Shown here: positions 4,140-52,236 of the stretch, piece after piece
Layout of the letters: each line of letters starts with the position of its first letter
Numbering within the stretch: the first letter of the stretch is position 1
Assembly: GCF_015529805.1 (NCBI RefSeq)
Contig: NZ_CP064654.1
Location: forward strand, 2,108,001-2,172,000
Direction of reading: 5' to 3'
Source: Qipengyuania soli
GTDB lineage: Bacteria > Pseudomonadota > Alphaproteobacteria > Sphingomonadales > Sphingomonadaceae
DNA length: 64,000 nucleotides
The notes under the pieces: generated by a model
Databases searched by the model: none
Seen by the model: the letters and a program-made list of their open reading frames with translations, nothing else
What the model was told of the DNA's origin: nothing
Made by a program: the position numbers and the translations under genes

Positions 4140-4212
4140 CGCATCACCTTTCGCAGCAGGTTTTCCATCGGGCGGAAGCTTCGTGCAAGCCCCTTGAACC
4201 GTAGCTGACCGC

Positions 4213-11904: not shown

Positions 11905-12768
11905 TCAGATGTCCTCGCTGATCCGGCCGTAAAGCTGCGGGCGCCGGTCGCGGAAGAAACCCATGCCCGCGCGGTGCTTCTTCGCCCGGTCGAGATCGAG
12001 CGTCGCCACCAGCACGCCGATTTCCTCAGCGCCGAATTCTTCCACCAGATCGCCCCATTCGTCCGAGATGAAGCTGTGTCCGTAGAAGCTCTGGGCGCGG
12101 TCGGCGGGACCTTCGTGCCCGATGCGGTTGGATGCGGCCACCGGCATGCAGTTCGACACCGCGTGGCCGATCATCGCCCGGCGCCACATGCGGCTGGTGT
12201 CGAGATCGGCGTCATAGGGTTCGGACCCGATTGCCGTGGGATAGAGCAACACTTCGGCGCCCTTCAATGCCATGACGCGCGCGCATTCCGGGTACCACTG
12301 GTCCCAGCAGATGCCGACGCCGATGCGCGCTCCGAACACGTCCCACACTTTGAACCCGTCATTGCCCGGGCGGAAATAGTACTTTTCCTCGTAGCCCGGG
12401 CCATCGGGGATATGGCTCTTGCGATAGGTGCCCATGATCTCGCCATCGGGGCCGATCATGGCGAGCGTGTTGTAATAGTGGTGCCCGTCGCGCTCGAAGA
12501 AGCTGGTCGGGATGGCGACGCCATGCTTGCGCGCAAGTTCGCGCATCGCCGCGACGCTCGGGTCATCGGCGGTCGGATGGGCACGGGCGAACAGTGCCTC
12601 GTCCTCTTCGCGGCAGAAGTAGTCGCCGGCGAATAGTTCGGGCGGCAGGATCACCTGCGCACCCTTGCCCGCAGCCTCTTCGACTAGCGCGGAGACGGCA
12701 GCGATATTGTCCGCCGCATCGGGCCGAGCGAGCGGGAGCTGGAGGACGGCGAGGGTCAGTTCTCTCAT
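11905..12768 (-). CDS. aguB: N-carbamoylputrescine amidohydrolase
   Basis: This 287-residue nitrilase-fold enzyme hydrolyses N-carbamoylputrescine to putrescine, CO2 and ammonia. The catalytic triad is visible: E44 (PPELFAGDYF), K117 (YRKSHIPDG) and C154 (GVGICWDQW). Segments such as YYFRPGNDGF and PTAIGSEP are typical of the AguB subgroup. I chose the ATG at 12768 (MRELTLAVLQ) since the longer frame only adds a hydrophilic tail with no ribosome site. An agmatine deiminase partner is not in the window. It sits 10 nt after the SIMPL gene on the same strand. Confidence 0.9.
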   Translation of the reverse strand: MRELTLAVLQLPLARPDAADNIAAVSALVEEAAGKGAQVILPPELFAGDYFCREEDEALFARAHPTADDPSVAAMRELARKHGVAIPTSFFERDGHHYYNTLAMIGPDGEIMGTYRKSHIPDGPGYEEKYYFRPGNDGFKVWDVFGARIGVGICWDQWYPECARVMALKGAEVLLYPTAIGSEPYDADLDTSRMWRRAMIGHAVSNCMPVAASNRIGHEGPADRAQSFYGHSFISDEWGDLVEEFGAEEIGVLVATLDLDRAKKHRAGMGFFRDRRPQLYGRISEDI

Positions 12769-12778
12769 GTCGCCCGCA

Positions 12779-13537
12779 CTATTTCTCCCGGAGGGCGAAG
12801 TCCACCTGGATATAGACACTGCTCCGCGTCGTGCCGACCATCATGCCGGGATTGGCGGTGCGCATGACCGGCGGCGGCGGAGCCACGGGCGGCGGCGGTG
12901 CGGCCTGCTCGACCTGGATCGCCATCGCATCCGCGCCGCGCAGCCATGTGTCGCCCTGCTGCCCTCCGGCATCGCGGATGTAGAGCACCCGGCTCACCTC
13001 CATCCCTGCCGCCTCGGCATAGGCCTCGGCCCGCTTGCGCGCCGCCTTGTACGCGTCGGCATAGGCAAGGTTGGCGGTCGCTTCGGGATCGGTCATCGAG
13101 AGGTTCGGACCGGAAACGATATTGGCCCCTGCCTCGGTCACCGCGGTGACGGCATCGCCAACCTTCCCGGGATCGCGCATCGTCACCGACACGACATTAC
13201 CCGCCTGGAACTGGCCCTTGCGATCACCCCAGTCGATCCGCTGGACGCTCACGGCGCGGGTCTGGATGTCCTTTTCCGCGATCCCGAGCTTCTGCAGGGC
13301 CGCGACGATCTCCGCGATCTTCTCGCCGTTCGCCTTGCTCGCATCCCGTGCAGAGCGCGCCCAGGTCTGGATGCCCGCGTCGAACTGCGCGCGGTCTGGA
13401 GTGCTTTCCGCCTGCCCGCTGGCACTGACCGATAAGAGCGTCTCCCCATGGTCCACGCCGCGGGTCTCGTCGGCGCGGTCGGAGCAGGCGGCCAGCACCA
13501 GCGGCAGCGCGGTGATCAGGCAAGTCTTGCGAATCAT
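12779..13537 (-). CDS. SIMPL-domain (DUF541) lipoprotein
   Basis: The 252-residue product starts with a lipoprotein signal ending in LAAC (Cys18), then a SIMPL domain: LSVSASGQAESTPDRAQF, DIQTRAVSVQRI and AYADAYKAARKRAEAYAEAAG are typical. A proline-rich linker (residues about 213-224) precedes the last strand IQVDFALREK. SIMPL proteins form periplasmic oligomers, and some family members protect against oxidative damage, but their biochemical role is poorly known. Its start codon and ribosome site lie inside a long inverted repeat described separately. Downstream are aguB and the unknown gene at 11478. Confidence 0.85.
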   Translation of the reverse strand: MIRKTCLITALPLVLAACSDRADETRGVDHGETLLSVSASGQAESTPDRAQFDAGIQTWARSARDASKANGEKIAEIVAALQKLGIAEKDIQTRAVSVQRIDWGDRKGQFQAGNVVSVTMRDPGKVGDAVTAVTEAGANIVSGPNLSMTDPEATANLAYADAYKAARKRAEAYAEAAGMEVSRVLYIRDAGGQQGDTWLRGADAMAIQVEQAAPPPPVAPPPPVMRTANPGMMVGTTRSSVYIQVDFALREK

Positions 13538-13572
13538 GTGACATTCTCCCCAAATGAGATAATGTCACATGA
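13534..13572 (-). promoter_or_regulatory. 12-bp perfect inverted repeat enclosing the SIMPL gene start codon
   Basis: Plus-strand arms TCATGTGACATT (13534-13545) and AATGTCACATGA (13561-13572) are perfect reverse complements separated by 15 nt. In the minus-strand mRNA the start AUG (13537-13535) is fully inside the right arm of the stem, and the ribosome site GGGGAG (13551-13546) is in the loop. It could act as an RNA switch on translation or as a DNA operator; no U-tract follows, so it is not an intrinsic terminator. Confidence 0.7.
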
Positions 13573-13605
13573 CTTACGGTCGCGACCTTAACGCCGCCTG
13601 ACGGT

Positions 13606-14439
13606 TCAGCGCTTGCGGAAGAGCAGCGTCATCCGGTCGCTTTCGCCAAGGTTCTTGAGCTCCTCTTTCTTGCTGCCCCAGACGGGCGGCATTTCCCACA
13701 CGCCACGTTCGTGATTGGCGGGGTCGGCGGGATTGGCATTGATGTCGCTCATCCCGACCAGTTCGAAACCGTGCGCCTCGACAAGTCCGATGACGTCCTT
13801 CTGCCGCAGGTAGCCCTTGCTGCCGTCGGTGTAGTCGCCACTGGCGTCATCCTTGGCGCGGTGCTGGACGATGCCGAGCATGCCGTCGCTCCTGAGCAGC
13901 GAGCGGATGCGGGTGAGTTCCTGGTGCATCACGCCATTGCGCAGCAGATTGTGCATTTCGCGGAAGATCAGCACGCGATCGACCGTGCCCTTCATGTCGT
14001 CGGTGATCTCGTTCGAGTTCATCACAGAGACGGGGGCGCCAGTAAGATTCCAGCCGGGTGAAACTTCCTTGAAGCGCGGGGTCAGCTTGGCAGCGTAATC
14101 GACCCAGCCGGTGTTGTTCGCGGTCGAGCCATCAGGATTGAGGCCGATGTAACGCCCCGAAGTGCCGAGGTAGGGCACCAGGACCCGCGTGTACCAGCCG
14201 CTCGCGGGCATGTAGTCGACCACTGTCATGCCCGGTTCGACCTGGAAGAAAGACAGCGTTTCCGCAGGATGGCGATACTGGTCGCGCGCCTTGTCGTCCT
14301 TGCGCGCGTCCGATGCCAAAGCCATCATCAGCGCGTGGTGCGACGGGCTGTGGGCGGCATGTTCCGCCGTCATGTGGTGGTCGGCAGCAGCAGGTGCTGC
14401 GAGGGCCATGGCAGCGGCAGCCGCCAGCAAGTATCGCAT
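13606..14439 (-). CDS. secreted class I SAM methyltransferase-like protein
   Basis: The 277-residue protein has a clear signal peptide (MRYLLAAAAAMALAAPAAA) followed by a His-rich segment and then a methyltransferase-like fold (COG4798 type): a helix SDARKDDKARDQYRHP, a motif-I-like strand VEPGMTVVDYMPASGWYTRVL, and IGLNPDG where the acidic ribose-binding residue normally sits. Motif I is degenerate compared with the usual D-x-G-x-G. Export to the periplasm, where SAM is not expected, suggests a non-methyltransferase or heme/metal role, but this is inference. It stands alone, divergent from msrA by 100 nt. Confidence 0.8.
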   Translation of the reverse strand: MRYLLAAAAAMALAAPAAADHHMTAEHAAHSPSHHALMMALASDARKDDKARDQYRHPAETLSFFQVEPGMTVVDYMPASGWYTRVLVPYLGTSGRYIGLNPDGSTANNTGWVDYAAKLTPRFKEVSPGWNLTGAPVSVMNSNEITDDMKGTVDRVLIFREMHNLLRNGVMHQELTRIRSLLRSDGMLGIVQHRAKDDASGDYTDGSKGYLRQKDVIGLVEAHGFELVGMSDINANPADPANHERGVWEMPPVWGSKKEELKNLGESDRMTLLFRKR

Positions 14440-28625: not shown

Positions 28626-28661
28626 GAAGGGCCCCGTGCCGATGCAGGTACGGGGCCCTTC
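28626..28661. terminator. intrinsic terminator between convergent genes
   Basis: GAAGGGCCCCGT (28626-28637) and ACGGGGCCCTTC (28650-28661) form a perfect 12-bp stem with a 12-nt loop, between the DegP-type gene and the convergent PBP gene. The U-rich part after it on the plus strand is weak, but the stem is very stable and could serve both directions. Confidence 0.8.
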
Positions 28662-50727: not shown

Positions 50728-52236
50728 CTGGTCGCACTGGTCAAAACGGTCGCTTACCTCGGGCTGGAAGCCCGCGGGGTAGAGGTGCAATGCTCGGTCG
50801 CGCCGGGACTGCCGAACTTCAATATCGTCGGTCTGGCAGACAAGGCGGTGGGGGAGAGCAAGGAACGCGTCCGCGCCGCGCTCGCCGGAATGGGCCTCGC
50901 CCTTCCGCCCAAACGGATCACCATCAACCTGTCGCCCGCCGACCTGCCCAAGGAGGGTTCGCACTACGACCTGCCCATCGCACTCGCCCTGCTGGCCGCG
51001 ATGGGGGTCACCGATGCCGAACAGTTGTGCGACTGGATAGCCGTAGGCGAACTCGCCCTCGATGCGCGGATCGTGCCGTCACCGGGCGTGCTCTTGGCGG
51101 CGATCCATGCCAGCGAGGCCGATGTCGGGCTCATCTGCCCCAGGGCCCAGGGTTCCGAAGCGCGGTGGGCGAGCGACATCCCGGTCTGCGCCGCCCCGGA
51201 CCTTACGAGCCTGCTCAATCACCTCAAGGGCACGCAGCGCCTGCCCGATCCCGAGCCGGGGTTGGTTGACGAGCCGGGCATCGGGCCCGACCTGAAGCAG
51301 GTGAAAGGCCAGGAAACCGCCAAGCGTGCGCTCGAGATCGCTGCGGCTGGCGGACACAATCTGCTGATGGTCGGCCCTCCGGGTGCGGGCAAGTCGCTGC
51401 TGGCCAGCTGCCTTCCCGGCATCCTCCCGCCACTAACCCCGCCCGAAGCGCTCGAAGTCAGCATGGTCCAGTCGGTTGCGGGGACGCTCGAGGATGGCCG
51501 GATCAGCCGTGCGCGGCCGTTCCGCGCGCCGCATCATTCGGCGAGCATGGCTGCACTGACCGGCGGCGGATTGCGAGTGAAGCCGGGAGAGGTAAGCCTC
51601 GCGCATCTCGGCGTGCTGTTCCTCGACGAACTGCCCGAATTCCAGCGCGCGGTGCTCGATTCGCTGCGCCAGCCGCTCGAAACCGGGAAGGTCGACGTCG
51701 CGCGTGCCAATGCTCACGTGACATTTCCCGCCAACGTCCAGCTGGTCGCTGCGATGAATCCGTGCCGTTGCGGGCACCTGGGGGATGCGGCGCTGGCGTG
51801 CAGCCGTGCGCCGCGATGCGCCGCCGACTACCAGAGCAAGGTGTCCGGTCCGATGCTCGACCGGATCGACCTGCATGTGGAGGTCGATCCGGTGAGTGCC
51901 ATGGACCTCGCTCTGCCCCCGCCTGCCGAAGGGAGCGCGGAGGTAGCCGCCCGGGTGCTCAAGGCGCGCGCGATTCAGACCGGGCGCGCGGAGCAAACGC
52001 GCGCGCGAACCAATGCCGACCTGCAGGGCGATGCTCTAGAGAAGTTCGCGACGCCCGACGAGCCTGGCCGCCAGCTACTGATGCAGGCGGCGAGCGCGAT
52101 GCGCCTGTCGGCCCGCGGCTACACGCGGATGCTGCGCGTCGCGCGCACGATCGCCGACCTTGCGGGAATGGAAACGGTCGGTCGCATTCACATCGCCGAA
52201 GCACTCAGCTACCGCAGGCATGCGCCGCGCGCCTGA
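50728..52236 (+). CDS. comM: YifB/ComM-family Mg-chelatase-like AAA+ ATPase, probable CTG start
   Basis: The 502-residue protein has a Lon-like N-terminal domain, a Mg-chelatase AAA+ domain (GPPGAGKSLLA, LFLDELPEFQ) and a C-terminal domain; it is related to ComM, which helps branch migration in natural transformation. The family N-terminus, VALVKTVAYLGLEARGVEVQ, is encoded upstream of the first GTG (50785). The only fitting start is CTG 50728, with GGGGG at 50717-50721 before it. No ATG, GTG or TTG is in frame before the stop TGA at 50704. GTG 50785 would lose 19 residues. Confidence 0.85.
   Translation: MVALVKTVAYLGLEARGVEVQCSVAPGLPNFNIVGLADKAVGESKERVRAALAGMGLALPPKRITINLSPADLPKEGSHYDLPIALALLAAMGVTDAEQLCDWIAVGELALDARIVPSPGVLLAAIHASEADVGLICPRAQGSEARWASDIPVCAAPDLTSLLNHLKGTQRLPDPEPGLVDEPGIGPDLKQVKGQETAKRALEIAAAGGHNLLMVGPPGAGKSLLASCLPGILPPLTPPEALEVSMVQSVAGTLEDGRISRARPFRAPHHSASMAALTGGGLRVKPGEVSLAHLGVLFLDELPEFQRAVLDSLRQPLETGKVDVARANAHVTFPANVQLVAAMNPCRCGHLGDAALACSRAPRCAADYQSKVSGPMLDRIDLHVEVDPVSAMDLALPPPAEGSAEVAARVLKARAIQTGRAEQTRARTNADLQGDALEKFATPDEPGRQLLMQAASAMRLSARGYTRMLRVARTIADLAGMETVGRIHIAEALSYRRHAPRA

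Follow-up and report, generated by a model that had tools for sequence, protein, structure and literature searches.

What does the perfect inverted repeat at the start of a SIMPL-domain lipoprotein gene of Qipengyuania soli do? The repeat lies within the stretch of 64,000 nucleotides analyzed here (the window; Table 1). A sequence-only reading had proposed that it hides the start codon in the mRNA, with a temperature- or ligand-sensing RNA or a repressor operator as plausible roles. The description of the repeat proved correct: TCATGTGACATT (13534-13545) and AATGTCACATGA (13561-13572), separated by 15 nt, are complementary at 12 of 12 pairs, and on the minus strand the ATG (13535-13537) falls inside the 3' arm and GGGGAG (13546-13551) inside the loop, where the latter is predicted to pair further with UCUC in a 4-bp inner helix. 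The predicted fold of the 101-nt leader has an energy of -44.3 kcal/mol (z = -5.0), and none of 200 shuffles folded as well. As for the assertion that such a repeat is unlikely by chance, perfect 12-bp inverted repeats (loop 3-30) were absent from 12 of 15 dinucleotide shuffles but occur at three places in the window. Because two more of them are present, length alone does not single out 13534-13572, and conservation is the stronger argument. These two, both with short loops, are found at 28626-28661 and 51860-51893; a perfect 10-bp palindrome, GGTCGCGACC, lies just upstream of the hairpin at 13578-13587. A dispersed repeat or mobile element was rejected because the sequence is single-copy: a two-copy search across the 2.91-Mb genome found the 12-bp repeat intact at 13534-13572 only, and no second match to the full repeat pattern with up to three mismatches was detected in the window.

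Table 1. Features at the SIMPL locus of Q. soli (window coordinates) and candidate Zur regulon loci.
Feature	Position	Strand	Remarks
SIMPL (PF04402) lipoprotein gene, 252 aa	12779..13537	-	Pfam E 5.7e-37; ATG 13535-13537
3' arm of Q. soli hairpin	13534..13545	-	holds start codon; species-specific
Shine-Dalgarno GGGGAG	13546..13551	-	8 nt from ATG; in loop of 12-bp stem, partly paired in inner helix
Zur-type operator dyad ATGTGACATTATCTCAT	13554..13570	-	conserved core; 1 mismatch to genus consensus
5' arm of Q. soli hairpin	13561..13572	-	holds 5' half of conserved operator
Upstream motif GTCAGGCGGCGTTAAGG, degenerate copy of GTCAGCC-NN-SGTTCAT	13586..13602	-	motif conserved across most relatives in the genus
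Codirectional upstream gene, 277 aa, exported, methyltransferase-like by eye	13606..14439	-	possible read-through source
Carbon-nitrogen hydrolase ORF, codirectional, downstream	11905..12819 (as listed)	-	PF00795 E 4.4e-53
Candidate Zur regulon loci	L033, L034, L036, L070, L072, L073-L087, L089, L090, L092		TGTNAYANTRTNACA-type dyads

The gene upstream of the SIMPL gene had no Pfam or NCBIfam match. The true start of the downstream hydrolase is likely an ATG near 12768, about 10 nt past the SIMPL stop codon, and the hydrolase is therefore probably co-transcribed with the SIMPL gene. SIMPL orthologues with 70-84% identity were found in 29 of the 60 other genomes of the genus, and a thirtieth genome (G018) carries a more distant copy with 55% identity (locus L122). 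Qipengyuania and Erythrobacter are among the named relatives from another collection.

Each of the 30 genus orthologues examined (29 relatives and Q. soli) has a hairpin past the upstream stop codon and ahead of the SIMPL start, and the predicted folds agree with the earlier proposal that it occludes the initiation region. The relatives pair bases other than those of Q. soli, and their hairpins are centered on an operator-like dyad (see below); nearly all are predicted to form near-perfect stems of about -21 to -36 kcal/mol. The mean predicted probability that the Shine-Dalgarno sequence is unpaired was 0.09 in the genus vs. 0.36 in 16 loci of other genera, the values for L020 and L021 not being meaningful since their start codons were mis-picked. 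Counted outward from the dyad center, positions 3 and 5-8 are nearly fixed and position 4 varies, while at positions 9-18 (10 outer base pairs) the sequence differs between species and complementarity is kept. Q. soli retains only two of these ten ancestral outer pairs; instead, the 5' half of the operator with its flanking bases pairs perfectly with the start-codon region. As judged from the sequences, Q. soli has lost the ancestral arms and its stem has formed anew in a different register, so that the feature is an old element recently shifted in its pairing. The exact arms of Q. soli are not conserved; according to the predicted structures, occlusion of the initiation site is.

Covariation was assessed in an alignment of 27 genus hairpins. 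Standard pairs occupied 96.5% of the cells, compared to 81.0% in column shuffles and 38-49% when the partners were slid; two-sided changes occurred at nine pairs, and the covariation score was 0.474 vs. 0.158. Covariation, which the sequence-only reading had wished to see in relatives, is thus present in their arms, but not in the species-specific arms of Q. soli. By parsimony on the SIMPL protein tree, about 38 compensatory changes (Watson-Crick to Watson-Crick) stand against about six breaks in the arms. Deviations from Watson-Crick pairing were G-U in 15 cells and A-C in three, a tally of cells rather than of independent events, with 10 of the 15 G-U in the operator core; this excess of G-U favors pairing in the sense RNA strand.

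The middle of the hairpin in the genus is a 17-bp dyad, ATGTNAYANTRTNACAT, located just upstream of the Shine-Dalgarno sequence, and its core was found within one mismatch in 28 of the 29 relatives. The contact rule of the E. coli Zur dimer is RNNNYxxxRNNNY (PMC4219657), and work on Caulobacter took GTTA-5N-TAAC to be the Zur motif of proteobacteria in general (PMC4176598). The dyad matches RNNNYxxxRNNNY and TGTNAYA half-sites: the Q. soli sequence GTGAC-ATT-ATCTC conforms to the rule, and every one of the 29 relatives has Y/R at position d=2 and G/C at d=6, as Zur contacts require. The half-sites of a CRP site, TGTGA...TCACA, are spaced by 6; here the spacing is 5, and CRP was rejected as the identity of the dyad. 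The 15-bp motif TGTNAYANTRTNACA occurred 48 times in 61 genus genomes and not at all in the reversed control. A matrix built from 16 distinct non-SIMPL sites only placed the Q. soli site at the top of the window (19.7 bits, next 10.4) and ranked the SIMPL operator first in 30 of 30 SIMPL loci, a test not fully independent of the pattern, since that consensus had served to find most of the sites in the first place. The sequence evidence thus supports a Zur-like operator type well, and the operator layer is probably a new member of the Zur-site family. The proposal of a repressor operator is supported for part of the hairpin, the 5' arm containing half of the conserved dyad.

Zur boxes of E. coli (GAAATGTTATA-N-TATAACATTTC) and Caulobacter share with the SIMPL dyad the 7-1-7 / 8-1-8 architecture as well as the contact rule. 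The SIMPL dyad differs from them in its place at the ribosome site, embedded in a long RNA-capable stem, and in the fourth half-site position, where many SIMPL operators carry G or A instead of the usual T. Because of this substitution, and because the right half-site of Q. soli is degenerate (TCTCAT), Zur may bind SIMPL operators, that of Q. soli included, only weakly.

The Q. soli genome encodes a Zur homologue that matches the FUR family and, below the curated NCBIfam cut-off, a Zur model; its alignment with E. coli Zur (4mtd) runs through the SAYD and VYR segments, and it so has the DNA-contact residues. Away from SIMPL, the dyad precedes a CDF exporter (TIGR01297, E 2e-72; ZitB model 1.6e-57, which does not reach the cut-off of that model), MerC (PF03203) and a small His/Cys-rich protein, and in the Q. 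soli genome itself TonB and a DUF4349 lipoprotein. In these genomes the motif thus also stands before zinc or metal genes, as known Zur boxes do. The candidate Zur regulon of the genus, with TGTNAYANTRTNACA-type dyads, comprises the CDF zinc exporter, a MerC-like protein, a small CGHGHCHH protein, TonB and the DUF4349 lipoprotein. Literature searches for Zur with MerC in Alphaproteobacteria, or for Zur in sphingomonads, yielded nothing useful, and in titles or abstracts of work on SIMPL/DUF541 function no link to zinc was found. To our knowledge, the SIMPL gene is not known as a Zur target.

Operator and arms can be told apart. Non-SIMPL copies of the operator have two to six of the ten outer pairs at 22 of 23 sites (the exception, L074, has nine), and SIMPL sites have eight to ten at 28 of 30. 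In other genera, the dyad occurs without arms some way upstream of the gene (L093, L099, L107, L122, L049); in two genera in which the upstream gene is divergent (L044, L104) the operator is present and the arms are absent, and arms are also short or missing at certain codirectional loci (L098, L111-L114). Judged by these sequences, the arms belong to the SIMPL copies and the dyad is a separate, DNA-level feature. The exception is a 35-bp perfect palindrome (L074:1194-1228) with a Zur-type dyad at its center, the only non-SIMPL site with long arms, situated between a codirectional sugar-kinase gene, whose stop codon it closely follows, and the His/Cys-rich gene. In one other genus (g15; L111, L112, L113, L114) the SIMPL dyad is altered to TGAGACANGGTCTCA-like sequences, possibly because operator and regulator are drifting together. 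In Novosphingobium marinum (L051, upstream of 3001), a stem of CTTCCTCCA and TGGAGGAAG covers the Shine-Dalgarno sequence before SIMPL without any dyad.

This distribution bears on two other accounts of the arms. The whole extended palindrome could be a protein-binding site whose arms are read by a second Zur dimer or by an accessory protein; Zur can bind as two dimers (PMC4219657), and an imperfect inverted repeat is found at Zur-activated export genes of Xanthomonas and Caulobacter (PMC4176598). We consider this very improbable, as the arm sequences differ widely yet stay complementary, contrary to what sequence-specific reading predicts, and are absent at other operators. Alternatively, template switching during replication may homogenize quasi-palindromes around the operator, leaving an RNA stem with little or no function. 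Without any selection, compensatory changes can arise by template-switch mutation, which can both create and maintain perfect stems (PMC8794818) and invert spacers (PMC8604942). CACTA and its exact inversion TAGTG are both found as central sequences in the orthologues: the hairpin center is ACACTAT in L003, L008, L017, L025 and L026 and ATAGTGT in L011, L012, L016 and L024, which is compatible with spacer inversion. By eye, about two substitutions separate the new 3' arm of Q. soli from the L002 start region, which would also suit template switching. Against this account, the same operator elsewhere in the same genomes grows no arms except at L074, 28 of 30 species have kept the arms, with few breaks, and the deviations lean to G-U over A-C. 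Template-switch mutation could explain part of the compensatory pattern, but not the near-restriction of the arms to SIMPL copies, and as the main explanation it appears unlikely.

The stem covers the Shine-Dalgarno sequence in nearly all genus orthologues, which together with the strong covariation and the sense-strand bias of the deviations would suit a post-transcriptional switch, i.e., an RNA thermometer or ligand-sensing leader that opens in the normal SIMPL mRNA to expose the ribosome site. RNA thermometers such as ROSE and FourU likewise occlude the Shine-Dalgarno sequence or AUG by a leader hairpin. However, the SIMPL stems are nearly perfect and, at the energies given above, far too stable for simple melting, unlike the marginally stable, imperfect stems of thermometers that melt near growth temperature, and thus the proposed temperature sensor found no support. 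Nothing pointed to a ligand-sensing RNA either: a search of 12 loci against Rfam, with E values up to 1, turned up nothing relevant, thermometer families included; the loop bases are variable and follow the rule for the DNA operator, which explains those that are conserved; and other genera retain the core where the arms are missing. We regard a switch of either kind as quite unlikely.

The hairpin closely follows the codirectional upstream gene, and it could be the intrinsic terminator of that gene, which happens to contain the operator and to abut the next start codon. Several T follow the stem in some species (L005-L007, L024), and the palindrome at L074, with the operator at its center, directly follows the kinase stop codon. 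The T-tract is not conserved, though; the 8-nt tails mostly contain 0-3 T, what follows the Q. soli stem is coding sequence lacking a T-run, and the stem sits on the Shine-Dalgarno sequence. We regard a terminator as improbable, to about the same degree as a switch.

The reading we prefer, to which we give an even chance, is a compound element, in which a Zur operator in the DNA is combined with an RNA stem that hides the Shine-Dalgarno sequence and start codon and acts as a translational insulator. At the DNA level, Zur (a zinc-sensing, Fur-family regulator) would bind the 17-bp dyad and repress. At the RNA level, the operator flanks being complementary, a transcript reading through from the upstream gene would fold into a stem, about 15-20 bp long, in which the Shine-Dalgarno sequence and/or the start codon is concealed, and initiation would thereby be blocked. 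The transcript from the operator-controlled promoter would start at or in the operator, without most of the 5' (anti-Shine-Dalgarno) arm, and this short transcript would leave the ribosome site freer. Translation of SIMPL would then depend on transcripts from its own zinc-controlled promoter alone, with the hairpin as the insulator; in Q. soli, the operator's 5' half has taken over pairing with the start-codon region after loss of the ancestral arms. Cutting the leader at 13564, at the operator, abolished the 12-bp stem of Q. soli in the predicted fold, and we count this difference between truncated and full leader in favor of the insulator. The absence of arms at the two divergent loci is likewise as this model predicts, although the sample is small: the argument from orientation rests on these two, and armless codirectional loci exist. 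If the promoter lies further upstream, the hairpin would be part of every SIMPL mRNA and would act either constitutively or as a switch. Somewhat less probable than the compound element, in our estimate, is a wider two-tier zinc device, in which one palindrome would serve both as the Zur operator in DNA and as the core of an RNA stem silencing every transcript not controlled by Zur, the stem being continually rebuilt through drift by selection and template switching.

Hairpins that sequester the ribosome site and act only on read-through transcripts are known from insertion sequences such as IS10. There, too, the 5' arm lies upstream of the element's own transcript start (presumed in the SIMPL case), so that only incoming transcripts form the full stem, and the Shine-Dalgarno sequence and/or AUG is buried. 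The SIMPL hairpin differs in that it is found at an ordinary chromosomal lipoprotein gene and is fused to a repressor operator, and in that its transcript ends are presumed; a search of the literature on read-through-blocking hairpins returned nothing directly usable. The fusion of a Zur-type operator with a stem occluding the Shine-Dalgarno sequence is new. It places a lipoprotein of the SIMPL family, which is widespread and of unknown function, in a probable zinc regulon, and, if the insulator reading is true, it shows how a single sequence can serve as both repressor operator and translation-blocking hairpin. The 28 species with rebuilt arms also form a clean natural data set for weighing selection against template-switch mutation in the evolution of hairpins.

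Between the upstream stop codon and the hairpin, most genus relatives (upstream regions of L002-L030) contain the motif GTCAGCC-NN-SGTTCAT, with a repeat spacing of 10-11 bp like that of a response-regulator site. It is possibly a response-regulator or promoter element. As a common promoter, GTCAGCY-NN-SRTTCA was rejected, its six matches in 21 genomes being about equal to the reversed control. A further match to the motif is located at 4195-4209 of the window, near another small lipoprotein gene.
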